Positions 47,519 to 62,825 of a stretch of DNA of 64,000 nt are shown here, piece by piece. Source of the DNA: Salibaculum halophilum (GTDB lineage: Bacteria > Pseudomonadota > Alphaproteobacteria > Rhodobacterales > Rhodobacteraceae); contig NZ_MSIT01000009.1 of the NCBI RefSeq assembly GCF_002094885.1, positions 1-64,000 on the forward strand, read 5' to 3'. The notes below the pieces were generated by a model. It did not search any database. It was not told where the DNA came from and was given only the letters and a program-made list of their open reading frames with translations. The position numbers and the translations under genes are program-made. Positions within the stretch are counted from its first letter, which is position 1. Every line of letters begins with the position of its first letter.

Positions 47519-48384
47519 GCCTTGTCCCCTCGCGTGAATGGCAGGATCGCGGCCATGTCGCGGGCGCCATAGCCCTCAGCCTCGGCCCTGAGTAGTCTGT
47601 CCAGAGTCACCCGCCCCTGCGGCATGGCGATGCCCAGCCTGTCGGCCAGAGCGGCGGTGACTTCCATGTCCTTGCGCGCCAGTGCCACGGTGAAGGTCAC
47701 GTCATGCGCGGCCTCGTCGAGGTAGAGCGGCCGACGGTATTTCAGCATCGGCGCGGCGGCGGCGCTCTTCTCGATCACGTCAAAGGCCGCGTCGCGTGCG
47801 ATGCCCGCCGCCTCGGCCAGGGTCATGGCCTCGGCAAGGGTCTGGTTGATGCCGTGGATCAGCGAGTTGACGGCGAGCTTCATGACCGCCCCGGCGCCCG
47901 TGGCGCCAAGGCAGATCGTGGCCCGGCCCATGGCGTCGAACAGCAGCCTGAGCGGCGCGGCCTCATCCTCGGTGCAACCGGCCATGATCAGCAGTTGCGC
48001 CTGTTCGGCGGCCTGCGTCGCCCCGGAGACCGGCGCGTCGATCACCTGGCATCCTTCCGGCGCGTTCGAAGCCAGCATCGCGATGTGATCCGGCGACATG
48101 GTGCCCATTTCCAGGAAGACCCGCGCGCCCCGCCCCGCGAACAACCCGTCCGCGTCGAGGTGCACCGCCTCGGACGACGAGTCATCGGCCAGCATGGTCA
48201 CGACGACCTCCACCGCTTCGGTCATCGCCGCGGGGCTGTCGGCGACGGAGCAGCCGGTCCGGTCGGCCAGCGCCCGCGCCTTGTCGGGCGTGCGGTTCCA
48301 GACGGTGACGTCATGCCCGGCCGCCACGAGATTGGCAGCCATATGCGCGCCCATACGGCCAAGTCCCGCGAATCCGACGCGCAT
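47515..48384 (-). CDS. 3-hydroxyisobutyrate dehydrogenase-like oxidoreductase
   Basis: 289 aa. Beta-hydroxyacid dehydrogenase family: GFAGLGRMGAHMAANL for NAD(P), DAPVSGATQAAEQAQLL for substrate and the catalytic Lys in KLAVNSLIHGINQTLAEAM. Could be tartronate semialdehyde reductase or a relative. ATPase gene ends 1 nt before its ATG. Confidence 0.92.
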   Translation of the reverse strand: MRVGFAGLGRMGAHMAANLVAAGHDVTVWNRTPDKARALADRTGCSVADSPAAMTEAVEVVVTMLADDSSSEAVHLDADGLFAGRGARVFLEMGTMSPDHIAMLASNAPEGCQVIDAPVSGATQAAEQAQLLIMAGCTEDEAAPLRLLFDAMGRATICLGATGAGAVMKLAVNSLIHGINQTLAEAMTLAEAAGIARDAAFDVIEKSAAAAPMLKYRRPLYLDEAAHDVTFTVALARKDMEVTAALADRLGIAMPQGRVTLDRLLRAEAEGYGARDMAAILPFTRGDKA

Positions 48385-48385
48385 C

Positions 48386-49897
48386 TCAGGCCACTTTGTC
48401 GCCCTGCAGGCCGGAAATCGCCTGGATCAGGCTGTCTTCAGTGACCTCGTCCGAGGTGAAGGTGCGCATAACCCGGCCCGAGAACATCGCGACGATCCGG
48501 TCGGAGACATGCAGCACCTCGGGCATTTCCGAACTGATGACGATGACCGCGTAGCCCTGCGCGGCAAGGTCGCGGATCAGGTTGTGAATCTCGGACTTCG
48601 AGCCGACGTCGATGCCGCGCGTCGGCTCGTCGACGATGAGCACCTCGGGGCGCATCGACAGCCACTTGCCGATGACAATCTTCTGCTGGTTGCCGCCCGA
48701 CAGGTTGCCGACGGTCTGGCGCCAGCCCGGCGTTCGGATGTCGAGCTTGTCGCGATACTGGTCGAAGATCGAGATCTCGGCCCCGTCGCTGACGAAGGGC
48801 CCGGCGGTCAGGTCGTCGACCTGCGGCAAGGTCATGTTGTCGCGGCAGTTCATGCCCAGCACGAGGCCCTGGCCCTTGCGATCCTCGGGCACCAGCGAGA
48901 TTCCCCGCGCAATGGCCTCGATCGGGGAATGGATACGCACCTCCTCCCCGCCCAGCAGGATCTGCCCCTCGGACGGATCGCGCAGGCCGAAGATCGTCTC
49001 GGCGATCTCGGTGCGGCCCGCGCCGACCAGCCCGTAGAAGCCCACGACCTCGCCCCGGTGGACGGTGAAGCTGACATCATTGAACAGATGACCGCAGGAC
49101 AGGCCGCGCACTTCCAGCGCCACATCGCCCATCTCGTGATGGCTCTCGTTGCGGCTCAGGTCCAGCTTGCGCCCGATCATCAGCTGCGTGACCGCTTCCT
49201 CATCGGTTTCGGCGGTGTTCAGCGTGCCGCGATACTGGCCGTCGCGCAGGACGCTGATCCGGTCGGTGATCTTGAAGATTTCCTCCATCCGGTGCGAGAT
49301 ATAGATGATCCCGACGCCCCTTGATTGCAGATCCGCAATCACCTTGAAGAGCACGACCTTCTCGGCATCGGTCAGCGAGGCCGTGGGTTCGTCGAAGATG
49401 ACCGCGCGCGGATCGACGGTCAGCGCGCGGGCGATCTCGACCATCTGCTGGTTGGCGATCGACAGGTCCCCGACCCGGGTGCGCGCATCGAAGCTGACAT
49501 TGAGCGTCTTGAGGATCGCGTCGGTATCCGCGTAGAGCTTGCCCCAATCCACCCGGCCGAAGGATTTAAGAGGCAACTCGCCAAGCCAGATGTTTTCGGC
49601 CACTGTGAGTTCGTCCGCGAGGCTCAGTTCCTGGTGGATGAAAACCACGCCGCGGGCCTTGGCCTGCATGGGCGAGGTGATCTCGACCTGTTCCTCGGCC
49701 ACGCAGATTTGACCCTCGTTGGGGTCGTAGATGCCGCCCAGGACCTTCATCAGTGTCGACTTTCCGGCACCGTTCTCGCCCATGAGGGCGTGAACCTCGC
49801 CGGGGCGCAGGTCGAAAGAGACACCATCAAGGGCGCGCACGCCGGGGAAGGTCTTGACCACCCCTTCCAGGCGCAGAACAGGGGGTTGATCCGTCAT
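48386..49897 (-). CDS. sugar ABC transporter ATP-binding protein, RbsA/MglA type
   Basis: 503 aa, two fused nucleotide-binding domains: the first with GENGAGKST, the second with SGGNQQKIVIGKWL and VLIVDEPTRGIDVGSK. The second Walker A is degenerate (GLVGAGRTE), as normal for RbsA. Powers the two RbsC-type permeases. ATGA overlap with the permease upstream. Confidence 0.95.
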   Translation of the reverse strand: MTDQPPVLRLEGVVKTFPGVRALDGVSFDLRPGEVHALMGENGAGKSTLMKVLGGIYDPNEGQICVAEEQVEITSPMQAKARGVVFIHQELSLADELTVAENIWLGELPLKSFGRVDWGKLYADTDAILKTLNVSFDARTRVGDLSIANQQMVEIARALTVDPRAVIFDEPTASLTDAEKVVLFKVIADLQSRGVGIIYISHRMEEIFKITDRISVLRDGQYRGTLNTAETDEEAVTQLMIGRKLDLSRNESHHEMGDVALEVRGLSCGHLFNDVSFTVHRGEVVGFYGLVGAGRTEIAETIFGLRDPSEGQILLGGEEVRIHSPIEAIARGISLVPEDRKGQGLVLGMNCRDNMTLPQVDDLTAGPFVSDGAEISIFDQYRDKLDIRTPGWRQTVGNLSGGNQQKIVIGKWLSMRPEVLIVDEPTRGIDVGSKSEIHNLIRDLAAQGYAVIVISSEMPEVLHVSDRIVAMFSGRVMRTFTSDEVTEDSLIQAISGLQGDKVA

Positions 49898-50895
49898 GTC
49901 TTGAGCTCCTCCTTGCCCTTGCGGTTCAATTGGCGATCCAGGAACAGCACCGCGATCAGGATCAGGCCGATCACGAGGTTCACCGTTTCCGTGTCGGCGC
50001 CGATGTGGCCCAGCCCCTTGCGCAGCAGCTGGATGGCGATGACCCCGCCGAGAGTCGAGACGATCGAGCCGTAGCCCCCCGCCAGCTTGGTGCCGCCCAG
50101 GACCACGGCGGTGATCGCCCAGAGCTCGTAGAGCATGCCGTCATTGGGGTTCACCGAGCCGCTTTCCGAGTAGAAGACGACAGCCGACAGCGCCGCGAGA
50201 AAACCGATCAGCATGAAATTCAGCAGGAAGTGCGGCCCGACCCGGATACCGGCGTTCACCGCCGCATCGCGGTTGTTGCCGATGGCATAGGCATTGCGGC
50301 CGTGCACCGTCCGGGTCATGACCAGCCAGAGGATCAGCGCCACCGCGAGCAGGAACCAGCTTGCCGTGTGCAGCCCCAGGAACTGCGCCTCGGCGAAATC
50401 CACCAGCGTCCAGTTCAGGTGGCTGGTGGGCTGTTCGCCGTTGTACATGAACACCAGCCCGCGAAAGCCCAGCATCGACCCCAGCGTGACGATGAAGGCA
50501 TCGACCCCGGTCTTCCAGACGATCAGGCCGTTGATCGCCCCGAGCACGACCCCGGTCAGCAGCGCGAAGCCCCAGGCCAGCGGGATGGCCCAGTCGCCCA
50601 GCGCCTGCATGAAGGGCCAAGTCATGCTGTCCAGCATCACGATCGCAGCCAGCGCGAAGGTCGCGCCGACGCTCAGGTCGATGTTGCCGTTGATCATGAT
50701 GATGGTCATGCCCAGCGCGATGATCCCGATCGGTGCCGACTGCTTGAGCAGCAGCAGCATGTTGTCGAAATCCATGAAGGCCGTGTCAGTGACCGACAGG
50801 TAGTTTCCCGCGATCGAGAAGAAGGCCAGTTCGAGGACGATGAAGCCCCAGATCGCGCCCTGCTTGAGCAGGTCCTTGCGTCTTTCCGTAAACAT
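49894..50895 (-). CDS. sugar ABC transporter permease, RbsC type (1)
   Basis: 333 aa, 8-10 helices; family motif GMTIIMINGNIDLSVGATFALAAIV and GGTKLAGGYGSIVSTLGG. Forms a heterodimer with the next permease upstream at 50908, 12 bp away. Confidence 0.94.
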   Translation of the reverse strand: MFTERRKDLLKQGAIWGFIVLELAFFSIAGNYLSVTDTAFMDFDNMLLLLKQSAPIGIIALGMTIIMINGNIDLSVGATFALAAIVMLDSMTWPFMQALGDWAIPLAWGFALLTGVVLGAINGLIVWKTGVDAFIVTLGSMLGFRGLVFMYNGEQPTSHLNWTLVDFAEAQFLGLHTASWFLLAVALILWLVMTRTVHGRNAYAIGNNRDAAVNAGIRVGPHFLLNFMLIGFLAALSAVVFYSESGSVNPNDGMLYELWAITAVVLGGTKLAGGYGSIVSTLGGVIAIQLLRKGLGHIGADTETVNLVIGLILIAVLFLDRQLNRKGKEELKT

Positions 50896-50907
50896 GGTGT
50901 CCCTCCC

Positions 50908-51882
50908 TCAGGCGATCGGCGACCAGAGACGGCCCCGCTTGGCGGCGATGTCCAGCCAGACCGCCAGGATGATGACCGCCCAGATCACGACGTCCTGGAC
51001 ATAGAATTCGAGGCCGATCAGCAGCAGGCCGTTCTCGATGAAGCCGAAGATCAGGACGCCGATCACCGTCTTTAGGATCGTGCCCGACCCGCCCAGAAGC
51101 GACGCGCCGCCGAGGATGACCATGGCCAGCACCTCGAGCTCGTAGCCCTGGCCCACGGTGTTCTGGCTGCCCAGGCTGCGGCTGGCCTGCAGCAGGCCGG
51201 CCGTGGCCACGCAGAAGGCCGAGATCAGGTAGGTGAAGAACACCACCCGCGCCCGCGGAATGCCCGAGAAGGTTGCCGCCTGGCCGTTACCACCGACGGC
51301 GTAGACCTTGCGGCCGAAGGGGGTCTTGGACAGCACCAGGCTCAGCACGAGGGCGAGCGTTCCGAAGATGACGATCGGCATGGGGACGCCGAGGATATCA
51401 CCGCGCCCGAAGAGACCGAACCAGGTGCCCTCCTTGTCGGCGATGTCCATGTTCTGGCCGCCCGACCATGTCAGCGTCAGACCGTGGATCGCCGAAAGCA
51501 TGCCCAGCGTCACGATCAGGGAATTAAGTTTCAGATACCCCACGAGGAACCCGATGAAGGCCCCGAGCGCCAGCGTCAGCCCGAACATCGCAGGGATCGC
51601 CAGCGTCGGGCCCAGCGTGTCGTGCAAATCCAGCACCACGATGGTCGAGAACGACATCATCGACCCGACCGACAGGTCGAGGTTGCCGCCGATCACCACA
51701 AAGGTCACGCCCAGCGCCATCACCCCGAGGATGGCCGAGGACCGGATCACCCCGAAGATGTTGTCGATCGCGATAAATCGCTGATTGGCCAGCGCGAAGC
51801 CGACCATGAACAGCACGAAGGCGACGAGGATGCCCTGCCGGGCCAAGAAGCCGCCGATGCCCTTTTTCGTCAAGTCCGCCAT
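50908..51882 (-). CDS. sugar ABC transporter permease, RbsC type (2)
   Basis: 324 aa, 8-10 helices; GVTFVVIGGNLDLSVGSMMSF and LGGASLLGGSGTILKTVIGVL. With the protein at 49894 makes the membrane pore of the cluster B importer. SDR gene 39 bp upstream. Confidence 0.94.
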   Translation of the reverse strand: MADLTKKGIGGFLARQGILVAFVLFMVGFALANQRFIAIDNIFGVIRSSAILGVMALGVTFVVIGGNLDLSVGSMMSFSTIVVLDLHDTLGPTLAIPAMFGLTLALGAFIGFLVGYLKLNSLIVTLGMLSAIHGLTLTWSGGQNMDIADKEGTWFGLFGRGDILGVPMPIVIFGTLALVLSLVLSKTPFGRKVYAVGGNGQAATFSGIPRARVVFFTYLISAFCVATAGLLQASRSLGSQNTVGQGYELEVLAMVILGGASLLGGSGTILKTVIGVLIFGFIENGLLLIGLEFYVQDVVIWAVIILAVWLDIAAKRGRLWSPIA

Positions 51883-51921
51883 GTCATCCTCCCAGATGGT
51901 GCGCCGCGGCCCGCGGCCCGG

Positions 51922-52719
51922 TCACACCAAGGTCATCCCACCGTCGATCATCACGATCTGCCCGGTCATGTAGTCGCTGTCCTTCGAGGCCAGGAACGTC
52001 GTCGTCCCGGTGATATCCTCGGGGCGGGCGACGCGGCCCTTGAGGATCTCTGCCGAAAATTCCTCCATCGCCTGCCCGGGGCGGTCGGCGGCGCCGATCT
52101 CCATCAGGTCGCGGTCGACCTGTTCCCACATCTCGGTGGCGACGACGCCCGGGGCGAAGCCCGTCACCGTGATATCATGTTTTGCCAGATCGCGTGCCCC
52201 CGATTGCGTGAGCGCGACAACCGCCCACTTGCTGGCACAATAGGGCGCGACGTTGTCGAACCCCTGCCGGCTGGCGATGCTGGCGGTGTTGACGATCTTG
52301 CCGCCGCCGCCCTGGGCGATCATCTGCCGGGCCGCTTCCTGCATGCCGATCATGCAGCCCATCCCGTTGACGCCCATGATGAAATTCCAGTTATCCTCGG
52401 TCACGTCGAGAAAATTCATCGGCTTGTTCACGCCCGCGTTGTTGAACTTGACGTCCAGCCGCCCGAAGACCTCGACGGTGTGGGCAATCATCGCGCGAAC
52501 CTGATCGCGATCGGTGACATCGACCACAGCGTGGGTCACGTCAGCGCCGGCCCGCGCGGCGCGAGCGGCGTTCTGCGCGGCGACCTCGGCGATCTTGTGC
52601 GCGTTCATGTCGGCGAAACAGACATTCGCGCCCTCATCCAGGAGCGCCTCTCCGATCGCGCGGCCAATGCCCTGTGCCGCGCCAGTGACGATGCAGGACC
52701 GCCCCGAGACTCGCGTCAT
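51922..52719 (-). CDS. short-chain dehydrogenase/reductase (SDR), cluster B copy 1
   Basis: 265 aa from the ATG at 52719. TGAAQGIGRAIGEAL, NNAGVNKPMNF, catalytic YCASKWA, and C-terminal DYMTGQIVMIDGGMTL. Closely similar to the SDR at 55813 (shared ENWxxIMxVN, MQEAARQMIAQG, ASIASRQ, GFAPGVVATEMWEQVDRDL). Such pairs oxidise polyols or sugar acids at two positions. Between permease and binding protein in the minus operon. Confidence 0.93.
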   Translation of the reverse strand: MTRVSGRSCIVTGAAQGIGRAIGEALLDEGANVCFADMNAHKIAEVAAQNAARAARAGADVTHAVVDVTDRDQVRAMIAHTVEVFGRLDVKFNNAGVNKPMNFLDVTEDNWNFIMGVNGMGCMIGMQEAARQMIAQGGGGKIVNTASIASRQGFDNVAPYCASKWAVVALTQSGARDLAKHDITVTGFAPGVVATEMWEQVDRDLMEIGAADRPGQAMEEFSAEILKGRVARPEDITGTTTFLASKDSDYMTGQIVMIDGGMTLV

Positions 52720-52797
52720 CACACGCCCCTCTCCGTCTTGTCGTGGAACGCAAAATGCGCGGGGCAGACAGGCCGCCCCGCGCATTCCGGGAGAGAC

Positions 52798-53754
52798 CTA
52801 GAACACCGGCTTGTCGAACTCGTCCATGTTGTCCTGAGTGATCTTCGGCGTGTCGAAGTAGTTCAGGAACGGGACATCCTCACCATCGAGAACGTCGATC
52901 GCGGTCCGCAGCGCGGCCTCGGCGTCATCAACCGGCGACTGGTAGATAGACCCCCAGTAATCACCTTCGCCCATGGCCTCGTAGCCCACGGCAAAGTTGG
53001 TCGCGCCCACGAAGGTGATCCCGTCACGCCCCGCGGCCTTGGCGGCGTTCAGCGCGCCCACGCCCATGTTGTCGTCGCCGGCATAGACGCCGTCGATATC
53101 GTCGTACTTGACGAGGAAGGCTTCCATGACTTGCTGCGACTTCTCGCGGTTCCAGTCACCGGGCTGGCTTTCGACAAGCTCGACGTTCGGGCAGACCTCG
53201 GGCAGGCGGTCCTGGAAACCGTCGGAGCGTTCGATCGCGGTGGTGTAACCGGGCTGGCCGGTGATCTCGACCACGCGGGCCTCGTCAGCGATGCCCAGCT
53301 CCTTGAAGCGATCACACATGATCTCGGCCGAACGCGAGCCCTGGGTGATGTTGTCGGGGCCCGAGAAGGAGGCGACGAAGTCGAAACCGGCCTCCGCGAT
53401 GTTCGAGTTGGTGACGACGACCGGGATGCCGGCCTGGTCTGCCTTGCGCACGGCCGGGATCACCGCTTCGCCGTTGGTCGGCCAGATGATGATGGCATCG
53501 ACCTCCTGCTGGATCAGGTCTTCCATCTGGGCGATCTGGCGGGCCACGTCGCCGCCGGCGTCCAGCACCACGACCTCGACGTTGTCGTTGGCCTCGGCGG
53601 CGGCGATGAAGGCCTGCTCGTAGGTTGTCTGGTAGCTGTCGACGCCCACGTTGTTCTGAGTGATGCCGATGGTATAGGTGTCATCCTGCGCCAGCGCCGA
53701 CGTGCCGATCATGGCCGTCGAACAGGCGAGCGCGGCTTTCAGTGTCTTATTCAT
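52798..53754 (-). CDS. sugar ABC transporter substrate-binding protein, ribose type
   Basis: 318 aa from the ATG at 53754; signal peptide MNKTLKAALACSTAMIGTSALA. Periplasmic-binding type 1 fold: YTIGITQNNVGVDSYQTTYE, DAIIIWPTNGEAVIPAVRKA, GIPVVVTNSN and VYAGDDNMGVGALNAAKAAG. First gene of the cluster B minus operon. The bound sugar is unknown. Confidence 0.95.
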   Translation of the reverse strand: MNKTLKAALACSTAMIGTSALAQDDTYTIGITQNNVGVDSYQTTYEQAFIAAAEANDNVEVVVLDAGGDVARQIAQMEDLIQQEVDAIIIWPTNGEAVIPAVRKADQAGIPVVVTNSNIAEAGFDFVASFSGPDNITQGSRSAEIMCDRFKELGIADEARVVEITGQPGYTTAIERSDGFQDRLPEVCPNVELVESQPGDWNREKSQQVMEAFLVKYDDIDGVYAGDDNMGVGALNAAKAAGRDGITFVGATNFAVGYEAMGEGDYWGSIYQSPVDDAEAALRTAIDVLDGEDVPFLNYFDTPKITQDNMDEFDKPVF

Positions 53755-53883
53755 TCCTGGATCCTCCCATTGGATGTATCGCGCGGATCGCGGCTGTCCT
53801 CCCAGACCGGGACGACACCCGGCGCAATCCTGCCCCGAATAAGGCGCGATTCTGCGCCACATGTGATCGGCCGTTTTGTTCAA

Positions 53884-53911
53884 ATCGGATATTCTTGTAT
53901 CCGATACGGAT
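53884..53911. promoter_or_regulatory. overlapping inverted repeats, putative operator for the fusion regulator
   Basis: Perfect ATCGGATA (53884-53891), 6-nt spacer, TATCCGAT (53898-53905). A second repeat ATCCG-ATA-CGGAT (53899-53911) shares its left arm with the first. In the 208-bp gap between the divergent solute-binding-protein and regulator genes. Probably bound by the regulator at 53963, allowing switching between two dimer positions. Confidence 0.65.
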
Positions 53912-53962
53912 TTTTTATCCATACTGGCGCCAGCCCAAATTGAACATTTTGAGGACAATCCG

Positions 53963-55831
53963 ATGAACGACGCGACCCGCGCCCCCGCAACCTCCGACAC
54001 GCCGCGAGCCATGCACCAGCCTGCCGCTAAAGATATCCAAATCGGACAATCCGCTGTCGCCCCCGCTGACGGCCTGTCCGGCGTGGCGGCCGGCCCCGAT
54101 CTGGAACGCATCGTGCATTTTTTGCAGGACTTCTGCGTCGAGATCGACACGGCGATCGACCCGAACACGCCAAACCCGCATCTCAACATGATCCTGCACC
54201 TGCTGCGCGGGCACCTCGAAGGGCGCGTGATCTCGCCCTCGTCCATGGTCGCCGCCGCCGGGGTGCCCTACGCCACAGGCACCCGCAAGCTGACCGATCT
54301 GCGCGGCGCTGGGCTGATCGAGCAGCGCCCGCGCACCAAGACCGGCAAGAGCTTCTCGCTGCATCCCAGCCCGCAGTTGCTGGACAGTTTCAGCCAGCTG
54401 GCCGACCGGGTCGACCGCATGGCCCGGGCCACGCTGCTTCAGACCTCCGGCGACGGCGGGGACACCGACTATTACTTCGGGCGCTCCTATCAGCCGGGCC
54501 TGGCCGCCATCGCGCCGCCCAGCGCCCTGCCGCAGCCGCTCAAGCTGGCCGGCGGGCTGCGCATCCTGGTTCACGGCGACCCCACCTTCATGGTCATGGA
54601 GACGCTCAAGCGGCAGTTCGAACAGATCGTCGGCACCGGCATCCATCAGCGCGCCTTTTCCATCGACCGGCTGCGCGAAGAGGCGCTGCGCAACGCCGCC
54701 CGCCCCAAGAGCCGCTATGACCTGATCGCGGTGGATCTGCCCTGGCTGGGCGAGTTCGTCAGCCGGGGCGTCATCCGTCCGCTGGCCGAGGTCATGGATG
54801 TCGACCGCCTCGACCCCAGCGATTTTCACACCGCCGGCTGGCGCGCGGCGCACTGGGGCGGCACACCCTACGGCGTGCCCAGCCAGACGACGCCGGAACT
54901 GATGTTCTACCGCAAGGACTGGTTCGCCGCCGCCGGGCTGGAGCCGCCGGCAACCACCGAGGCGGTGATCGCCGCCGCCCGGCACCTGCACGACCCGCGC
55001 CACGGCCGCTACGGCGTGGCCTGGAACGCCGCGCGCGGCACCGCGCTGGGGCATACCTTCATGATGACCTGCGCGGCCTTCGGCCAGCCCATCATCGACA
55101 TTCCGCCCATCGCCGGCGGGTTCGACGCCGACAACCTGGCCGAGGGCGGCTTTGCCCCGCGGTTCGATACCGACCGCGCGCATGCAGCGGCCGACTACCT
55201 GATGCAGTTGATGGATGTCTCGCCGCCCGACATCCTGTCGATGTCGTGGTACGAACGCGTCCGCCCCTATGCCGAGGGCAAGGTCGCCATGGCCTATGGC
55301 TATACCCTGCTGGCCCCCTATTTCGAACTCGACAGCAGCTGCCCGGCCCACGGCAACACGGGCTATCTGCCGCATCCGCACGGGCCCGAGGGCGCGCCGA
55401 TCGCGCCGGTGGGGGGCTACGTGCTCTGCGTGCCCTCGAACCTGGCCGAGGACCGCGTTGCCGATGCCGCCGAGGCGCTGGTCGCCTTCACCTCGCCGGC
55501 GGCGCAGAAGCTCTATGCCCAGAACGGCAGCCGCACCGCGCCGCGCTACTCGGTCGGGGCCGACCCCGAGGTGCGCCGCCTCTCGCCCGTCTTCGAGATG
55601 GTCGACCAGATGTCCTGGCGCGACGAGCTGCAGTTCTGGCCGCGCCCGCCGATCCCGAAAATCTCGGACATCATCCGCATCTGCGGGCACGAATTGCACG
55701 ACATGCTGCGCGGGATCGTCGCCCCGCGCGAGGCACTTGCGCGGGTGCAGGCCCGCGCGGAGGACATTTTGCGACACCCCGACAGCCCGTCCGTCACACA
55801 AGGGAGGAAACCATGGACCCCAACCGCCTGA
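53963..55831 (+). CDS. fusion regulator: winged-helix DNA-binding domain plus family 1 solute-binding domain
   Basis: 622 aa from the ATG at 53963 (GAGGA upstream). No signal peptide: the first 45 residues are polar. Residues 70-150 look like a winged helix (HLNMILHLLRGHLEG, SPSSMVAAAGVPYATGTRKL, DLRGAGLIEQRPR, KTGKSFSLHPS). From about 198 to 600 a MalE-type (SBP_bac_1) domain follows: GLRILVHGDPTFMVMETLKRQ, YGVPSQTTPELMFYRKDWF and GKVAMAYGYTLLAPYF. So the sensor is a cytoplasmic binding protein, as LacI uses a type 1 fold, but from another family. Overlaps the SDR start by 19 nt. Likely regulates both cluster B operons. Confidence 0.85.
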   Translation: MNDATRAPATSDTPRAMHQPAAKDIQIGQSAVAPADGLSGVAAGPDLERIVHFLQDFCVEIDTAIDPNTPNPHLNMILHLLRGHLEGRVISPSSMVAAAGVPYATGTRKLTDLRGAGLIEQRPRTKTGKSFSLHPSPQLLDSFSQLADRVDRMARATLLQTSGDGGDTDYYFGRSYQPGLAAIAPPSALPQPLKLAGGLRILVHGDPTFMVMETLKRQFEQIVGTGIHQRAFSIDRLREEALRNAARPKSRYDLIAVDLPWLGEFVSRGVIRPLAEVMDVDRLDPSDFHTAGWRAAHWGGTPYGVPSQTTPELMFYRKDWFAAAGLEPPATTEAVIAAARHLHDPRHGRYGVAWNAARGTALGHTFMMTCAAFGQPIIDIPPIAGGFDADNLAEGGFAPRFDTDRAHAAADYLMQLMDVSPPDILSMSWYERVRPYAEGKVAMAYGYTLLAPYFELDSSCPAHGNTGYLPHPHGPEGAPIAPVGGYVLCVPSNLAEDRVADAAEALVAFTSPAAQKLYAQNGSRTAPRYSVGADPEVRRLSPVFEMVDQMSWRDELQFWPRPPIPKISDIIRICGHELHDMLRGIVAPREALARVQARAEDILRHPDSPSVTQGRKPWTPTA

Positions 55832-56622
55832 CCGGCAAGAACATCCTTATCACCGGCGCCGCCCGCGGCATGGGCGCCGCCAATGCCCAAGTCTTCGCCG
55901 CCCAGGGCGCCAATGTCTGTCTCGGCGACCTCGACCTCGCCGCCGCGCAGGAGATGGCAGACACGATCAACGCCGCCGGAAACGGCAAGGCGATCGCCGC
56001 CCGGATGGACGTGACAAAGCGCGAGGATAACGCCGCCGCCGTCAAGGCAACGGTCGAGGCCTTCGGGTCGATCAACGTCGGCGTGTTCAACGCCGGCCTG
56101 AACAAGCCCCGGTTCTTCATGGATATCGACGAAGAGAACTGGGACATGATCATGAACGTCAACACCAAGGCGATGTGGCTGGGGATGCAGGAGGTCGCCC
56201 GCCAGATGATCGCCCAGGGCCCCATGGAGGACCACCCCTACAAGCTGATCAACGTCGGTTCCATCGCCAGCCGCAAGCCCCTGGTCGACGTCACCGTCTA
56301 CTGCACCTCGAAATACGGCTGCCTGGCGCTGACCGAATGCGGCGCGCTGGGGCTGGCCGAGCACAACATCACCGTGAACGGCTACGCGCCGGGCGTCGTC
56401 GTCACCCCGCTGTGGGAACAGCTCGACAAGGACCTGGTCGATATCGGCTTCAAGGAGCGCGAGGGCCAGGCCTATGACGACATTGTCGCCAACAACCTGG
56501 TGATCAAGCGCGTCTCCTACCCTGACGACATCACCGGCACTGCCTCTTTCCTGGCCAGCGACGACAGCGACTACATGACCGGCCAGATGATCCACATCGA
56601 CGGGGGCTGGGTCACCAAGTAA
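55813..56622 (+). CDS. short-chain dehydrogenase/reductase (SDR), cluster B copy 2
   Basis: 269 aa from the ATG at 55813 (GGGAGGA upstream, inside the regulator's last codons). TGAARGMGAANAQVF, FNAGLNKPRFF, catalytic YCTSKYG and GQMIHIDGGWVTK. Paralogue of the SDR at 51922 on the other arm. Probably acts on the same substrate or the next intermediate. Confidence 0.93.
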   Translation: MDPNRLTGKNILITGAARGMGAANAQVFAAQGANVCLGDLDLAAAQEMADTINAAGNGKAIAARMDVTKREDNAAAVKATVEAFGSINVGVFNAGLNKPRFFMDIDEENWDMIMNVNTKAMWLGMQEVARQMIAQGPMEDHPYKLINVGSIASRKPLVDVTVYCTSKYGCLALTECGALGLAEHNITVNGYAPGVVVTPLWEQLDKDLVDIGFKEREGQAYDDIVANNLVIKRVSYPDDITGTASFLASDDSDYMTGQMIHIDGGWVTK

Positions 56623-56688
56623 CCCCGCCTATCCACAACCGCACCCGCAGACCACAACGCCGGGGCACGGCCCCGCAAGGAGTTCGTC

Positions 56689-57999
56689 ATGTCAGACCGT
56701 CCGGGCAATGCCCTGATGCCGAACCTGCTGACCCCGCAGGACCTGAAACCCAACTGGCAGTGGGAGGCCAAGCTGCCCTCGCCCGGCCACATGTCCGTCG
56801 ATTTCGAGCGCCGGGTCGATCACGACCGGCTGCGCCGCTACCGGCTGGCGCGCACGCGGCAGAGCTTGCAGGCCTCGCAGGCCGGCTCGCTGCTGCTGTT
56901 CGACGTCAACAACATCCGCTACGTCTCCGCCACCAAGATCGGCGAGTGGGAGCGGGACAAGATGTGCCGGTTCTGCCTGCTGACCGGCGACGACAGCCCT
57001 TACGTCTGGGACTTCGGCTCGGCCGCGGTGCACCACCAGAAGTATTCCGACTGGCTGGAACCCGACCACTGCCTGGCCGGGGTCGTGGGCATGCGCGGCA
57101 CGATCCCGCCCGAGTTCGGGCTGATGCGCAAGTATGCCAAGATGATCGCCGAGCTGATCAAGGACGCCGGCATGGCCGACATGCCGGTGGGCGTGGACTA
57201 TGCCGAAACGGCGATGTTCCACGCGCTTCAGGAAGAGGGCATCAAGGTCGTCGACGGCCAGCAGATCATGCTGTCGGCGCGCGAGATCAAGAACTGGGAC
57301 GAGATCCAGTTGCTGACCCAGGCGGCCAGCATGGTCGACGGCGTCTACCACATGATCTACGAGGAGTTGAAACCGGGCGTGCGGGAAAACGACATCGTCG
57401 CGCTGTCCAACAAGATGCTCTACGAGATGGGCAGTGACGACGTCGAGGCGATCAACGCGATCTCGGGCGAGCGCTGCAATCCGCATCCGCACAACTTCAC
57501 CGACCGGCTGATCCGGCCCGGCGACCAGGCCTTCTTCGACATCCTGCAGTCCTACCAGGGTTACCGGACGTGCTATTACCGCACGTTCAACGTGGGCCGC
57601 GCCACCCCGGCGCAGAACGACGCCTACGTCAAGGCGCGCGAATGGATCGACGCCTCGATCGCGATGATCAGGCCGGGTGTCACCACCGACAAGGTGGCCG
57701 AGGTCTGGCCCACCGCCGAAAGCCTTGGCTTTCCGAACGAGGACGCGGCCTTCGGGTTGCAGTTCGGGCACGGACTGGGGCTGGCGCTGCACGAGCGCCC
57801 GATCATTTCCCGCGCGGTATCACTCGATCACCCGATGGAAATCCAGACCGGCATGGTCTTCGCGCTGGAGACCTACTGCCCGGCGACCGACGGCTATTCC
57901 GCCGCCCGGATCGAGGAAGAGGTCGTGGTGACCGAGACCGGCTGCGAGGTGATCAGCCTGTTCCCGGCCGAGGACCTGCCGATCGCCAACCGCTACTGA
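56689..57999 (+). CDS. M24 (creatinase/Xaa-Pro peptidase-fold) protein with one altered metal ligand
   Basis: 436 aa. N-terminal creatinase-like domain (about 40-190), then the pita-bread fold. Metal-site positions: Asp in FFDILQSYQGYRTC present, but the second Asp of the D-x10-D pair is Cys (RTCYYRTF); His in HGLGLALHERP, Glu in FALETYCP and Glu in ARIEEEVVV remain. Might be a C-N or C-S bond hydrolase rather than a peptidase. DMSP lyase DddP shares the fold, but the motif DxDLIGSYGICVD does not fit. Follows the SDR by 66 bp. Confidence 0.85.
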   Translation: MSDRPGNALMPNLLTPQDLKPNWQWEAKLPSPGHMSVDFERRVDHDRLRRYRLARTRQSLQASQAGSLLLFDVNNIRYVSATKIGEWERDKMCRFCLLTGDDSPYVWDFGSAAVHHQKYSDWLEPDHCLAGVVGMRGTIPPEFGLMRKYAKMIAELIKDAGMADMPVGVDYAETAMFHALQEEGIKVVDGQQIMLSAREIKNWDEIQLLTQAASMVDGVYHMIYEELKPGVRENDIVALSNKMLYEMGSDDVEAINAISGERCNPHPHNFTDRLIRPGDQAFFDILQSYQGYRTCYYRTFNVGRATPAQNDAYVKAREWIDASIAMIRPGVTTDKVAEVWPTAESLGFPNEDAAFGLQFGHGLGLALHERPIISRAVSLDHPMEIQTGMVFALETYCPATDGYSAARIEEEVVVTETGCEVISLFPAEDLPIANRY

Positions 58000-58022
58000 C
58001 CCGCCCGTTGCACCAGCAAACG

Positions 58023-58074
58023 TGGGGGGCCGTCTGCCCCCCACACCCCCCGAGGATATTTGCGGCCAGAAGAA
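58023..58074 (+). repeat. intergenic hairpin repeat, copy C
   Basis: GGGGGG/CCCCCC stem, then CACCCCCCGAGGATATTTG and CGGCCAGAAGAA. On the plus strand between the M24 and E1 alpha genes. Two or three positions differ from copies A and B. Confidence 0.7.
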
Positions 58075-58107
58075 CCACCGACGGCCGCCCCGCAAAGGAC
58101 ACGGAAC

Positions 58108-59085
58108 ATGGCCAAGGCCAAGACCAATACCGAGGACTACCTGCGCATGTATCGCCAGATGGTGCGCATCCGCACCTTCGAGGACAATGCCAACCAGCTT
58201 TACCTCTCGGCCAAGATGCCGGGCCTGACGCACATGTATTCCGGCGAAGAGGGCGTGGCCGTGGGCATCTGCGAGGCGCTGACCGATTCCGACCGCATCA
58301 CCTCGACCCATCGCGGCCACGGGCATTGCGTCGCCAAGGGGGCGAATTTCAAACAGATGTTCTGCGAGCTACTTGGAAAGGAAGAGGGGTATTGCCGGGG
58401 CAAGGGCGGGTCGATGCATATCGCCGACCAGAGCCACGGCAACCTCGGGGCCAATGCCATCGTCGGCGGCTCCATGGGGATCGCCACGGGCTCGGCTTTG
58501 CGCGCGAAACTGCAGGGGGCCGACGACGTGACCGTTTGCTTTTTCGGCGACGGGGCGACGGCGCAGGGGCTGCTTTACGAGGTCATGAACATGGCCGCGC
58601 TGTGGAACCTGCCCGTCATCTATGCCTGCGAGAACAACGGCTATTCCGAATACACCAAGACCGAGGAAATCGCCGCCGGGTCGATCACCGCGCGGGCCGA
58701 GGCCTTCGGCATCGAGGCCCACACGGTGGACGGCCAGGACGTGCTGGCCGTCAACGAGCTGACGCAGGACCTGGTCGCGCGTGCGCGCCGCGGCGAGGGG
58801 CCGTTCTTTCTGGAGCTGGAAACCTACCGCTACCACGGCCACCACGTGGGCGACATCAACCGCGAGTATTACCGGTCCAAGGACGAGGAAAAGGACTGGA
58901 AGGAAAATCGCGACCCGATCGTGCGCTTTCGCGGCTGGCTGGTCGAACAGGGCATCGCCACCGAGGACGAAATCGAGGCGATGAACGCCGAGATCGAGAC
59001 CGACGCCACCGAGGCGGTCGCCTATGCCGAGGCTGCCAGGTACCCCGACGTGTCCGAGGTCGACATGCATGTCCATTCGGACTGA
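58108..59085 (+). CDS. TPP-dependent 2-oxoacid dehydrogenase E1 alpha subunit (pyruvate/acetoin type)
   Basis: 325 aa from the ATG at 58108 (AAAGGA upstream). TPP motif GDGATAQGLLYEVMNMAALW...ENN complete; GYCRGKGGSMHIAD and STHRGHGHCVAKG are typical of PDH/acetoin E1 alpha. Decarboxylates a 2-oxo acid or cleaves acetoin. 10 bp before E1 beta. Confidence 0.92.
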   Translation: MAKAKTNTEDYLRMYRQMVRIRTFEDNANQLYLSAKMPGLTHMYSGEEGVAVGICEALTDSDRITSTHRGHGHCVAKGANFKQMFCELLGKEEGYCRGKGGSMHIADQSHGNLGANAIVGGSMGIATGSALRAKLQGADDVTVCFFGDGATAQGLLYEVMNMAALWNLPVIYACENNGYSEYTKTEEIAAGSITARAEAFGIEAHTVDGQDVLAVNELTQDLVARARRGEGPFFLELETYRYHGHHVGDINREYYRSKDEEKDWKENRDPIVRFRGWLVEQGIATEDEIEAMNAEIETDATEAVAYAEAARYPDVSEVDMHVHSD

Positions 59086-59095
59086 GGAGAGAGAA

Positions 59096-60091
59096 ATGCG
59101 AGAGATCACACTGTCCCAGGCCGTGAACGAGGCCATCGCAGAGGAAATGCGCCGCGACGAGACGGTCTTCCTGATGGGCGAGGACGTGGCCGAGGCCGGC
59201 ACGCCCTTCAAGGTCCTGTCCGGCCTGGTCGAGGAGTTCGGCACGGGCCGTGTCATCGACACGCCCATCGCCGAGCCGGGCTTTGTCGGCCTCGCCGTGG
59301 GCGCGGCAATGACCGGCGGGCGGCCCGTCGTGGACCTGATGTTCGGCGATTTTTTGTACCTGGTCATGGATCAGCTGTGCAACCAGGCAGCCAAGCAGCA
59401 CTACATGTCGGGTGGCAAGCTGACGGTGCCGATGGTCCTGCGCACCAACCTCGGGGCAACGCGTCGCTCGGCCGCGCAGCACTCGCAGAGCTTGCAGGCG
59501 CTGGTGGCGCATATCCCGGGGCTGAAGGTGGCGATGCCCTCGTCGGCCTACGAGGCCAAGGGCCTGATGAAGACGGCGATCCGCGACAACAACCCGGTCG
59601 TCATCTTCGAGGACAAGCTGATGTACCAGGACAAGGCGCCGATACCGGAGGAGGACTACCTGATTCCCTTCGGCGAAGCGCATATCAAGCGCGAGGGGTC
59701 GGACATCACGCTGATCGGCACGTCCTCGATGGTGCAGGTGGCCGAGGCGGCCGCCGACATGCTCTCGGCCGAGGGCATCAGCGCCGAGGTCATCGACCCG
59801 CGCACCCTCGTGCCGCTGGACGAGGCGGCGCTGGTCGAAAGCGTCAAACGGACCAGCCGTGCCATCGTCATAGACGAGGGGCATCAGAGCTATGGCGTGA
59901 CCTCGGAAATCGCCTCGCGGCTCAACGAAAAGGCCTTCTATCACCTGGATGCGCCGGTGCTGCGCATGGGCGCAATGGACGTGCCGGTGCCCTTCTCGCC
60001 CGCGCTGGAGGACATCACTGTGCCGACGCCCGAAGGCGTGGCCGAAAACGCGCGCAAGCTTTGCTCCGGGGAACTCATTCATGCAGCGTGA
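59096..60091 (+). CDS. 2-oxoacid dehydrogenase E1 beta subunit
   Basis: 331 aa from the ATG at 59096 (GGAGAGAG upstream). FLMGEDVAEAGTPFKVLSGL, DTPIAEPGFVGLAVGAAM, HSQSLQALVAHIPGLKV and VIDPRTLVPLD are typical. Forms the alpha2beta2 E1 with the preceding gene. Its last 11 nt overlap the lipoyl protein gene. Confidence 0.93.
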   Translation: MREITLSQAVNEAIAEEMRRDETVFLMGEDVAEAGTPFKVLSGLVEEFGTGRVIDTPIAEPGFVGLAVGAAMTGGRPVVDLMFGDFLYLVMDQLCNQAAKQHYMSGGKLTVPMVLRTNLGATRRSAAQHSQSLQALVAHIPGLKVAMPSSAYEAKGLMKTAIRDNNPVVIFEDKLMYQDKAPIPEEDYLIPFGEAHIKREGSDITLIGTSSMVQVAEAAADMLSAEGISAEVIDPRTLVPLDEAALVESVKRTSRAIVIDEGHQSYGVTSEIASRLNEKAFYHLDAPVLRMGAMDVPVPFSPALEDITVPTPEGVAENARKLCSGELIHAA

Positions 60092-61376
60092 CGACCAGAC
60101 AGTCACGCGGCGTGACGTGACGATGCCGCAACTGGGCATGGCGCAGGATGCGGGCAAGATCGTGTCCTGGCTGAAAGCCCCGGGCGATGCGGTCGCCAAG
60201 GGCGAGGCCCTCTTCGAGGTGGAAACCGACAAGGCCACGATGGAAGTCGAGGCGCAGGCGGCAGGCTTCCTGACCGGGGTGGCAGCGGCCGAGGGCGACG
60301 ACGTGCCCGTGGGCGCCGTGATCGCCCGGATCAGCGACAGTGCCGAGGATGACACCCCTGCCCCCGCGGCCCCGGTGGCGGAGGTACCGGCAGACGCCCT
60401 GCCCGAGGGCCATTCGGTGACCATGCCGCAACTTGGCATGGCCCAGGATACCGGGCTGCTGGTCGGCTGGCTGAAATCGCCGGGTGATGCCGTCGCGGCG
60501 GCGGACGTGCTTTTCGAGGTCGAGACCGACAAGAGCACCATGGAGGTCGAGGCGGGCCGGGATGGATACCTGGCCGCGACGCTGGCTCAGGCGGGCGAAG
60601 AGGTGCCCGTGGGCGGACCGGTGGCCGTGATAAGCAACGCCGCCCCGGACAATCCCGTAGCCCGGTCCGTGGCCGCGGCCCCGGCGCCGCCCGCACAAGA
60701 GGCAAAGCCGGAGCCGGCGGCCGAACCAGCCCGGAAACCGGCCGCGCCACAACCGGTCCTGCAGCCGACAGGCGGGCGCATCCTGGCCTCGCCCAAGGCG
60801 CGGCGGCTGGCGCTGGAACAGGGGCTGGACCTGGCCCGCCTGGCCGAGGCGGGCCATCCGCAGCCCTATCACGTCAGCGACCTGGACACGCTGCGCAGCC
60901 TACCGGCCGTCACCCCCGCGGCCGAGGCGGGCGAGGCCAGCCGGCGCCTTGTTGCCGAGGTGCCCGAGGATGGCGTGCCGGCGTTCGCGGCCTGGGCGGC
61001 CGCGGCGCATGGCCTCACGGATGCCGACGCGATCCTCGCCGGGTTGACGGCCGCGTCACTGCCCGACCCCGGCCCCGTGGCTGTCGAACGGCACGGCACG
61101 ATGACGACCTATGCCCTGCCCGCCGACCGCGCCCTGTCGGGCGTGGCCGAGACCGGGGACGACCCGGCACTGATACTGCGCGATCTGCGCGGCAGCCGGC
61201 TGACCAACGTCGAGATGGGCGGCGAGTCCACCCCGGTTCTGACCCTGACACCGAAGGCGACGGGCCTGACCCTCACCCTGGAATGCGCCGCGTCCCGGCT
61301 GGACGCGCGGGCCGCGATCCAGCTTCTGACCGACGTCGCGGACCGGGTGGAACAACCGCTCCGCCATCTGCTCTGA
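60081..61376 (+). CDS. two-lipoyl-domain E2-like protein with degenerate catalytic domain
   Basis: 431 aa. Two lipoyl domains with an exact 100-residue period: lipoyl lysines K51 and K151 (ETDKATMEVEA, ETDKSTMEVEA). An Ala/Pro linker, then a peripheral-subunit-binding domain (ILASPKARRLALEQGLDLARLAE, about 234-258). Residues 290-431 look like a shrunken acyltransferase domain: the end QLLTDVADRVEQPLRHLL is E2-like but HxxxDG is missing. Carries the acyl group; the catalytic step must be done by the chain at 62826. Confidence 0.9.
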   Translation: MQRDDQTVTRRDVTMPQLGMAQDAGKIVSWLKAPGDAVAKGEALFEVETDKATMEVEAQAAGFLTGVAAAEGDDVPVGAVIARISDSAEDDTPAPAAPVAEVPADALPEGHSVTMPQLGMAQDTGLLVGWLKSPGDAVAAADVLFEVETDKSTMEVEAGRDGYLAATLAQAGEEVPVGGPVAVISNAAPDNPVARSVAAAPAPPAQEAKPEPAAEPARKPAAPQPVLQPTGGRILASPKARRLALEQGLDLARLAEAGHPQPYHVSDLDTLRSLPAVTPAAEAGEASRRLVAEVPEDGVPAFAAWAAAAHGLTDADAILAGLTAASLPDPGPVAVERHGTMTTYALPADRALSGVAETGDDPALILRDLRGSRLTNVEMGGESTPVLTLTPKATGLTLTLECAASRLDARAAIQLLTDVADRVEQPLRHLL

Positions 61377-61391
61377 CCCCTGGAGACCGAC

Positions 61392-62816
61392 ATGGACTAC
61401 ACCGATCTCTACATAAACGGCGCGTGGCACGCGACCGACACGCGCTTTGACGTGATCAACCCGGCCACCGAAGAGGTGCTGGCCACTGTCGCCTCGGCCG
61501 AGACCGCCGATGCCGATGCCGCGCTTGATGCCGCCGAGGCGGCCATGGCCGACTGGGCGGCGCGCACGCCGCGGCAGCGGTCAGAGGTGCTGCGCAAGGC
61601 CTGGGAATTGATGACCGCGCGACTGGATCACTTCGCCCACCTCATCACGCTTGAAAACGGCAAGGCCGGCGTCGACGCCCGCGGCGAGGCCGCCTATGCC
61701 GCCGAGTTCTTTCGCTGGTTCGCGGAAGAGGCCGTGCGCGCCGACGGGCTGATCACGCAGGCCCCCGCCTCGGGCGCGCGCATCGTGGTGCAGCACAAGC
61801 CCGCCGGGCTGGCGGTGCTGGTCACGCCGTGGAACTACCCGGCGGCCATGGGCACCCGCAAGATCGCGCCCGCGCTGGCCGCGGGCTGTGGCGTCATCAT
61901 CAAGCCCGCCTCGGAGACGCCGCTGACCATGCTGGCGCTGATGCCGCTGCTGGAAGAGGCGGGCGTGCCGCCGGGGCTGGTCAACGTGTTGCCCAGCACG
62001 CGTACCGGCGCGCTGGTCGATCACATGCTGCATGATGCGCGCGTGCGCGTCGTCAGCTTTACCGGGTCGACGGGTGTGGGGCGCAAGCTGCTAAAATCCG
62101 CCGCCGACCAAGTGCTCAAACCGGCCATGGAACTGGGCGGCAACGCGCCCTGCATCGTCTTCGAGGACGCCGATATCGAAGCGGCCGTCGAGGGCACAAT
62201 GCTGGCCAAGATGCGCAACCTCGGCGAGGCCTGCACCGCGGCCAACCGCATCTATGTGCACCGCGACGTGGCCGACGAATTCACCCGCCGCCTGACCGAA
62301 CGCATGGCCGCGCTCAAGCTGGGCTGTGGCACCGACCCGTCGGTGGATGTCGGCCCGCTGGTCAATGCCGACACGCGCGACAAGGTGGCCGCCTTCGTCG
62401 CCGATGCCGTGGCCAAGGGGGCCAAGGTCGAATGCGGTGGCACCACGCCCGATGGGACGGGGTATTTCTACCCACCCACCGTGCTGTCGGGCGTCACCGA
62501 GGATGCCGATTGCGTGCATGACGAGATCTTCGGCCCCGTTGCCGCGATCCAGAGCTTTTCCGACCAGGAGGACGTGATCGCCCGCGCCAACGCCACCGAA
62601 TACGGCCTTGTCGCCTATGTCTTCTCAGAAGATTTCAAGCGCGCGCTGCAGGTCTGCGAGCGGCTGGACTACGGCATGGTCGGCCTCAACCGCGGGCTGG
62701 TCAGCGACCCGGCCGCCCCCTTCGGCGGCACCAAGCAATCGGGCCTCGGCCGCGAAGGCGGGCACGAGGGTATGCTGGAGTTCATGGAAACCCAGTATAT
62801 CTCGGCCAACTGGTAG
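61392..62816 (+). CDS. NAD(P)-dependent aldehyde dehydrogenase (succinate-semialdehyde type)
   Basis: 474 aa. TPWNYPAAMGTRKIAPALAAG, Glu in MELGGNAPCIVFEDAD, the catalytic Cys in NLGEACTAANRIYVH, and GLGREGGHEGMLEF. Group resembles succinate-semialdehyde dehydrogenases (GabD). Oxidises an aldehyde from cluster B to its acid. Intrudes between the two E2-type genes. Confidence 0.93.
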   Translation: MDYTDLYINGAWHATDTRFDVINPATEEVLATVASAETADADAALDAAEAAMADWAARTPRQRSEVLRKAWELMTARLDHFAHLITLENGKAGVDARGEAAYAAEFFRWFAEEAVRADGLITQAPASGARIVVQHKPAGLAVLVTPWNYPAAMGTRKIAPALAAGCGVIIKPASETPLTMLALMPLLEEAGVPPGLVNVLPSTRTGALVDHMLHDARVRVVSFTGSTGVGRKLLKSAADQVLKPAMELGGNAPCIVFEDADIEAAVEGTMLAKMRNLGEACTAANRIYVHRDVADEFTRRLTERMAALKLGCGTDPSVDVGPLVNADTRDKVAAFVADAVAKGAKVECGGTTPDGTGYFYPPTVLSGVTEDADCVHDEIFGPVAAIQSFSDQEDVIARANATEYGLVAYVFSEDFKRALQVCERLDYGMVGLNRGLVSDPAAPFGGTKQSGLGREGGHEGMLEFMETQYISANW

Positions 62817-62825
62817 GGGGTGGAC

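Follow-up and report, generated by a model that had tools for sequence, protein, structure and literature searches.

Does a protein encoded in Salibaculum halophilum catch sugar outside the cell, as its public annotation implies, or does it act on DNA inside it? The gene lies in a stretch of 64,000 nucleotides (contig NZ_MSIT01000009.1, positions 1 to 64,000, forward strand), hereafter the window, whose positions serve as coordinates; its product, of 622 amino acids (aa), and the members of its family are here called REG for short. REG very probably works within the cell as a DNA-binding switch and not as an external sugar catcher. Specifically, we propose that REG is a cytosolic one-component regulator of divergent importer and catabolic operons, acting through TATCCANNNTGGATA sites and switched by a cytosolic sugar- or polyol-like ligand, and we regard this proposal as likely. 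A preliminary description of this DNA had put a winged helix and a family 1 solute-binding domain in one chain without a signal peptide, an architecture that Pfam matches, structure models and hydropathy bear out.

53963–55831, forward strand: REG, a 622-aa protein with a MarR-like winged helix and a family 1 solute-binding domain (ATG at 53963, stop codon at 55829–55831)
54095–54442, forward strand: predicted MarR-like winged-helix DNA-binding domain of REG, residues 45–160 (domain model, fold comparison, MarR_2 matches)
54548–55777, forward strand: family 1 (MalE-type) solute-binding domain of REG, residues about 196–605 (Pfam, PDB sequence match, model)

The sensor is a complete domain of a kind familiar from importers. 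Residues 251–515 match the family 1 profile PF01547 (E = 1.1e-20; 75.3 bits against a cut-off of 26) and REG also matches PF13416 (E = 6.9e-17; 62.6 bits against 27), both as had been anticipated; nothing else was found by a Pfam scan of full-length REG at E ≤ 1. The closest solved relative by sequence is 5iai, a sugar-importer receptor (REG 199–600, E = 6.3e-25), and comparison of the modeled solute-binding protein (SBP) domain with known folds gives 5iai at Z 28.3 (353 residues aligned, root-mean-square deviation (rmsd) 3.6), 5ci5 at 27.5 and SmoF at 26.2, in keeping with the earlier placement of a full family 1 domain at about 198–600. 5iai is reported to have been crystallized with ribitol and 5ci5 with tagatose. 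The protein alignment comprises 44 of 55 aligned sequences, and a second alignment, of diverse domains, 22 of 32. Across the 44 sequences, W261, Q308, E312, W354, R358, W429, Y430, G484, G485 and R524 are invariant; our guess is that they line the pocket.

The N-terminal domain, modeled alone (predicted local distance difference test, pLDDT, 89.5; predicted template modeling score, pTM, 0.79), suggests how REG could contact DNA. The models contain helices at 72–86, 92–98 and 103–115, strands at 119–123 and 131–135, and a helix at 137–158. The preliminary description had seen a winged-helix-like segment at about 70–150 and had staked it on structure prediction within residues 60–160, which places the winged helix at 72–135. 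Foldseek matches this model to MexR, HpaR and MarR (E = 2e-4 to 5e-4), flanking helices included; a MarR winged-helix fold is recognized on the predicted model only, with MexR, MarR and MepR at the top and the whole domain aligned. By sequence this winged helix is remote from MarR proteins. No Pfam helix-turn-helix (HTH) profile matches full-length REG at E ≤ 1, and the profile match to a winged helix in the same chain came from isolated N-terminal domains at a loose limit of E ≤ 10, where MarR_2 is found in 22 of 22 (best 1.5e-5), IclR in 16 and TrmB in 15. Among a few of the weaker matches to the DNA-binding-domain profile in the class, three proteins outside the REG family, at L091, L100 and L103, carry a receiver domain (PF00072) and end in a related winged helix; they are a possible source of the DNA-binding domain of REG.

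Nothing at the start of REG resembles an export signal. By simple hydropathy, with no trained predictor, the best 12-residue hydrophobicity within the first 38 residues has a median of 0.04 (maximum 1.07) in 55 REG proteins versus 1.80 in the 55 neighboring RbsB receptors; none of the REGs exceeds the RbsB median, 38 of the 55 exceed the RbsB minimum (−0.08), and a lipobox occurs in none of the 55. Residues 1–45 are hydrophilic and variable. REG starts in relatives were picked partly by hand from ribosome-binding-site scores, and with these starts the earlier statement that the protein lacks a signal peptide extends to its homologues. Frames extended upstream of the chosen start hold 15-residue windows of 1.64–2.36 in eight loci; these are translated promoter DNA.

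If REG acts on DNA, where would it bind? The candidate operator unit is a 15-bp palindrome, TATCCANNNTGGATA, and the window holds the following sites, to which no strand is assigned.

53877–53891: putative operator O1, TGTTCAAATCGGATA (comparative evidence)
53898–53912: putative operator O2, TATCCGATACGGATT, 21 bp from O1
53932–53946: O3, AGCCCAAATTGAACA, a weak operator-like site near the ribosome-binding site; 30 of 55 loci have a site there
54034–54048: putative operator O4, TATCCAAATCGGACA, inside the REG coding sequence at codons 24–29 (synonymous-recoding test)

Relative to the start of REG, O1 is at about −87 and O2 at about −66, both in the 208-bp region that separates REG from the divergent receptor gene rbsB. 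Our DNA counts cover the window and 54 loci (n = 55), which share descent and are not 55 independent events; they include L054, whose interrupted frame keeps it out of the protein alignments, and omit L047, whose start is unclear. The O1–O2 spacing is 21 bp in 53 of these 55, and 20 and 22 bp in the other two. Pairwise identity, in a comparison anchored on the best O2 site, which favors O2, is 0.64 at O1 and 0.69 at O2, against 0.31–0.36 upstream and 0.42–0.46 in the spacer and just downstream. The intragenic site was judged against 500 synonymous recodings per gene, using a matrix trained on O1 and O2 only: the top-scoring site within a gene's first 150 coding bases reaches p ≤ 0.01 in 43 of 55 loci and p ≤ 0.05 in 51 (the misses are L008, L034, L046 and L055), so codon choice, and not the peptide alone, keeps O4. 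This top site falls at +71 in 39 of the 55 loci; six loci have it at 68 or 74, six at 13–16 and two at 83, and in L008 and L039 it is elsewhere. O2 is followed by a loosely conserved 'ATACT'-like element, which could be the −10 box of the REG promoter.

The preliminary description had taken overlapping palindromes at 53884–53911 as the operator. The palindrome exists and a putative operator is there; the unit, in our analysis, is the 15-bp TATCCANNNTGGATA, and the palindrome is the junction of O1 and O2. Comparison across loci resolves the inverted repeat at 53884–53905, whose 8-bp arms were reached by 9 of 300 shuffles, into the right half of O1 and the left half of O2. We rejected the longer palindrome as the operator unit because 15-bp sites occur singly, as at O4, at 14993 in L114 and at 8292 in L115. 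An intrinsic terminator at 53884–53905 was also rejected: a scan gave two terminator-like sites against 0.3 expected, and the O1 and O2 half-sites explain the sequence.

In the window's own genome, a loose operator pattern occurs at 36 places versus 13 for a reversed control. O2 itself does not match this pattern, and an A/T-only spacer, a criterion chosen after viewing the list, is found among the 36 at O1 and O4 only. This distribution is consistent with a local regulator.

Does the operator accompany REG beyond the loci that defined it? The scan matrix, trained on the upstream copies O1 and O2, was applied to six plasmid loci of relatives at 27–65% identity and to 14 further genomic loci. 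In five of the six plasmid loci it finds nine sites of at least 15 bits, all nine of them intergenic, where intergenic DNA makes up 6–24% of those loci. One lies between rbsB and REG in L127, three are in L128, and L129 has one between REG and the gene that follows; L130 has one between divergent genes for an SDR dehydrogenase and a 3-hydroxyisobutyrate-dehydrogenase-like (HIBADH) oxidoreductase and one upstream of a reductase gene, and L131 has one upstream of an ABC cluster and another between the genes for HIBADH and YciI. On the same five loci, 60 permuted palindromic matrices placed a mean of 2.55 of 9 sites in intergenic DNA (maximum 7) and gave 0.12 sites of at least 15 bits (maximum 1). 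In the 14 genomic loci the mean top-3 score is 16.4 versus 9.1 for controls (maximum 13.2). L114 has two sites 20 bp apart between the dehydrogenase gene SDR2 and the receptor gene and one upstream of its M24 gene, and L115–L117 carry TATTCA..TGAATA palindromes ahead of SDR2 and also either between the REG and receptor genes or at the very beginning of the called REG frame. The putative operator is common to REG members down to 28% identity.

The genes around REG indicate what such a switch would govern.

52798–53754, reverse strand: RbsB-type periplasmic receptor (PF13407), divergent from REG
51922–52785, reverse strand: SDR1 dehydrogenase
50908–51882, reverse strand: RbsC-type permease
49894–50895, reverse strand: RbsC-type permease
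48386–49897, reverse strand: RbsA-type ATPase
47515–48384, reverse strand: HIBADH-like oxidoreductase
46802–47518, reverse strand: ThuA-family protein (PF06283)
55813–56622, forward strand: SDR2 dehydrogenase, with a 19-nt overlap between its start and the end of REG
56689–57999, forward strand: M24 (creatinase/DddP-fold) family protein
58108–63707, forward strand: E1 alpha, E1 beta, lipoyl protein, aldehyde dehydrogenase (ALDH) and acyltransferase core

The receptor is of the ribose type, as previously described; sensor and receptor may see different molecules, as the preliminary description proposed. The 19-nt overlap of REG with SDR2 makes it probable that REG shares a transcript with its pathway and controls its own expression. 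In orthologous loci the gene order is [thuA]-[HIBADH]-rbsA-rbsC-rbsC-SDR1-rbsB, divergent from REG-SDR2-M24. With neighboring genes counted at 50% identity or more, all four genes of the RbsABC importer stand beside REG on the divergent strand in every one of the 55 loci, some of which are on contigs that end early; 54 loci have SDR2, 50 each SDR1 and M24, 47 ALDH, 43 the acyltransferase core, 31 thuA and 29 HIBADH. The window region 46802–63707 forms a conserved catabolic cluster, with ThuA, the HIBADH-like protein, two SDRs, M24, E1 alpha and beta, ALDH and an E2 that is split between a two-lipoyl gene (60081–61376) and a catalytic-core gene (62820–63707).

Relatives of REG are numerous. A scan of species genomes gave 79 loci, of which 55 (L002–L056) are 62–86% identical along REG, 54 of them with uninterrupted frames; in L054 (Marinicella sp. 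W31) a break falls some three fifths of the way through the frame, and the operators are intact. The other 24 (L057–L080) match in the SBP domain only and were rejected as REG-type fusions, their frames of 367–484 aa being too short; two show a lipoprotein-like cysteine in the stretch viewed. A profile of the DNA-binding domain finds matches at E ≤ 1e-12 in Rhodobacterales (54 of 292 genomes, from 37 of 112 genera, with no more than three in any genome), at E ≤ 1e-3 in 40 of 385 genomes of the class Alphaproteobacteria and at E ≤ 1e-7 in 26 of 398 of the phylum. Eight of the class genomes have strong matches (E ≤ 3.3e-20) in frames of 564–654 aa, with full-length similarity checked in seven (G154 excepted); six phylum genomes have strong matches in long frames, and one of these six, G795, lies outside the class and reaches 48% full-length identity. 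Among 163 matching plasmid records, 34 span at least 80% of REG, with hosts that include Phaeobacter, Tritonibacter, Skermanella, Agrobacterium, Rhizobium, Shinella, Aminobacter and Paraburkholderia, and 26 of these 34 copies are annotated 'extracellular solute-binding protein'. Full-length relatives at 27–49% identity come from other Alphaproteobacteria and from two Paraburkholderia plasmids.

The family adjoins mostly sugar-uptake and sugar-breakdown genes. In plasmid contexts read from annotation for six members, a sugar ABC importer is found in Phaeobacter, Skermanella, Agrobacterium (two) and Aminobacter; a Paraburkholderia plasmid has a sugar ABC receptor and an inositol dehydrogenase, and a Sinorhizobium B11 plasmid has dehydrogenases nearby and no annotated importer within 7 kb. 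By similarity, ABC importer components lie near REG in all 14 further genomic loci (in L120, a family 1 receptor and a permease). L118 and L119 are two different REG paralogues, one on either side of a single importer and Gfo/Idh/MocA cluster; a GMC oxidoreductase gene adjoins one of the two paralogues. This is a possible case of dual control of one pathway. In L130 and L131, REG relatives stand beside intradiol dioxygenase and YciI genes, joined in L131 by a maleylacetate reductase gene; a sugar- or cyclitol-to-hydroxyquinol pathway is possible there. L114, L115–L117 and L125 combine REG and the same SDR2/M24/E1 pathway with a ribose-type importer only 20–36% identical to the window's, an apparent transporter replacement. 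In L125, for example, identity to the window is 46% for REG, 86% for M24, 82% for ALDH and 78% for ThuA, versus 36% for RbsA and 28% for RbsC. Such company fits a ligand tied to the pathway.

How might the switch work? From the fold and the palindromic sites we infer that a REG dimer, formed through its MarR-type winged helix, would bind each 15-bp palindrome. Sites 21 bp apart, or two helical turns, would lie on one helix face between the divergent rbsB and REG operons and could cooperate, and further binding may occur at O4 within REG's own gene. In the cytosol the SBP domain would close on a substrate or intermediate resembling a sugar or polyol and alter the DNA-binding state, such that import (rbsB-SDR1-rbsCCA-HIBADH-thuA) and catabolism (REG-SDR2-M24-E1/E2-ALDH) would be expressed when the compound is present. 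REG is probably a repressor; we favor ligand-relieved repression, with O1/O2 and the intragenic O4 possibly joined in a loop or acting as a roadblock. On balance, we also lean toward a broader reading: a natural family of cytosolic MarR–SBP (family 1) regulators, labeled 'extracellular solute-binding protein', may have been reused across Alphaproteobacteria and beyond with varied importers and pathways and one operator code (TATCCANNNTGGATA), its upstream operators working, in the Rhodobacterales branch, with one in the REG coding sequence.

Several results weigh against these proposals. The full-length AlphaFold2 model of REG (44 orthologues as input) is mediocre, at pLDDT 66.7 and pTM 0.60, with the probable pocket loops 355–361, 423–449 and 522–551 below pLDDT 50. 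The N-terminal model aligns with MepR at Z 11.5 (rmsd 3.6 over 111 residues), which is good for a small domain, although for mostly helical folds the comparison tool advises caution below 13, and REG's own winged helix reaches only E = 0.04 and 14.5 bits against MarR_2, under the Pfam cut-off of 27. O4 scores low (5.8–10.4) in L008, L022, L024, L026 and L039. The O2–O4 distance is 135–139 bp in 44 of 54 loci and 83–85 bp in 6 of 54, with 97, 107 and 150 bp also found, and this scatter means that looping in strict phase is not established; nor is overlap of the sites with promoters, since a promoter scan of 53700–54100 found no sigma-70-like promoter. A further matrix match of 16.0 bits falls at about 40169 in the window, 13.8 kb upstream, and matches recur near +5000 (12) and −3000 (11) from the REG start, within coding regions as judged from gene order. 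Among the plasmid loci, L127 is an orthologue of the trained group, and L132 has no site of at least 15 bits and was left out of the permuted-matrix control. L123 and L124 lack a good site, and placement in the 14 genomic loci is not decisive alone: 27 of 42 top sites lie outside gene bodies (which here exclude the first 150 bases of each gene) against a control mean of 16.2 and maximum of 28. Finally, the tree does not group L114, L115–L117 and L125; the L125 identities suggest that REG follows the pathway rather than the importer, but because M24-linked REGs do not form one clade, we make no such claim.

Of the other explanations, the strongest changes the sign or the signal of the switch: REG might activate its operons, or its SBP domain might sense by contact with a protein such as the importer ATPase instead of a small molecule. 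We hold this to be unlikely. A divergent promoter with a tandem pair of sites at 21-bp spacing suits activation too, and the sign is not fixed by the present evidence, but O4 inside the reading frame suits repression better. An importer ATPase is indeed encoded in the REG cluster; a dedicated REG–importer contact is, however, awkward where REG and the enzymes persist beside the 20–36% identical importers of L114, L115–L117 and L125, and the invariance of the guessed pocket residues in 44 sequences also argues against it. Considerably less probable is that the operator is that of another regulator, with its gene elsewhere, and that REG regulates something else. Co-occurrence is what connects REG to the motif, which leaves room for such a regulator, but in orthologues REG's own promoter and gene contain the sites, the motif recurs beside divergent REGs on unrelated plasmids, and a Pfam scan of 14 neighboring proteins found no other regulator among them. 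We reject as very improbable the idea that REG is an exported or membrane-tethered importer SBP whose N-terminal domain does not bind DNA, for which its public-record annotation and full SBP domain might speak, given that 55 proteins show neither a hydrophobic signal peptide nor a lipobox, that the fold is MarR-like, that the operator is co-distributed with the REG family and that the importer has its own receptor gene.

As a cytosolic regulator, REG would have several known neighbors. Members of the LacI family are local sugar-responsive regulators with a sensor descended from a periplasmic binding protein, and they use several operators, one of them sometimes intragenic; they join a LacI HTH to a type 1 fold, whereas REG joins a winged helix to a type 2 (MalE) fold and has no match to the LacI HTH or type 1 periplasmic-binding domain at E ≤ 1. 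LysR proteins combine a winged helix with a type 2 periplasmic-binding fold, but their effector domain is short and their HTH is of another family, and neither the LysR HTH nor the LysR substrate-binding domain is matched in REG at E ≤ 1. MarR proteins such as MepR and MexR share the predicted DNA-binding fold, flanking helices included; they are of about 140 aa, bind ligand within the dimer and recognize palindromic operators, whereas REG, below the Pfam cut-off, has 622 aa with a separate 400-residue sensor and is not a single-domain protein. Family 1 sugar and polyol SBPs (5iai, 5ci5, SmoF) share the fold and sequence of the sensor but are extracytoplasmic ABC-importer receptors. GntR–SBP fusions may be a wider precedent; the genomes of L063 and L064 contain no GntR frames above 528 aa, an SBP_bac_8 search of four genomes gave 397 matches with one 1089-aa frame among the matches listed, and such fusions may exist elsewhere.

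The closest precedent is SgrR/DsvR of E. coli and V. cholerae, described as a regulator with an N-terminal HTH and a C-terminal SBP_bac_5 domain in one protein, linked to sugar genes (PMC13060122). REG likewise joins an HTH to a solute-binding domain, of family 1 instead of SBP_bac_5, and neither SgrR_N nor SBP_bac_5 is matched in it at E ≤ 1. SgrR is not known to be encoded beside a dedicated importer. Lacking the defining domains of the SgrR, LacI and LysR families, REG is a variant of the known idea of HTH plus solute-binding domain. The preliminary description knew of no characterized example of a family 1 domain in this role. For the general idea SgrR is a characterized precedent, with another SBP family; open-licence literature yielded no description of a family 1 SBP regulator or of this cluster, which does not prove that none exists. 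Synthetic libraries of chimeric regulators fuse a DNA-binding domain to a periplasmic binding protein (DBD–PBP; PMC6079105); REG has the same design and is natural.

The REG family is sizeable and mislabeled, and apparently undescribed. As the candidate operator is common to members down to 28% identity, the claim is quickly testable. REG offers a natural template for biosensors, so far built by DBD–PBP fusion (PMC6079105), in a scaffold class with many ligand-bound structures. If our proposal is true, it would correct the recurrent label 'extracellular solute-binding protein', and neighboring orphan importers and pathways would gain a candidate regulator, an operator and a ligand probe. One-component sugar regulators would have acquired a new sensor fold, a complete family 1 domain in the cytosol.

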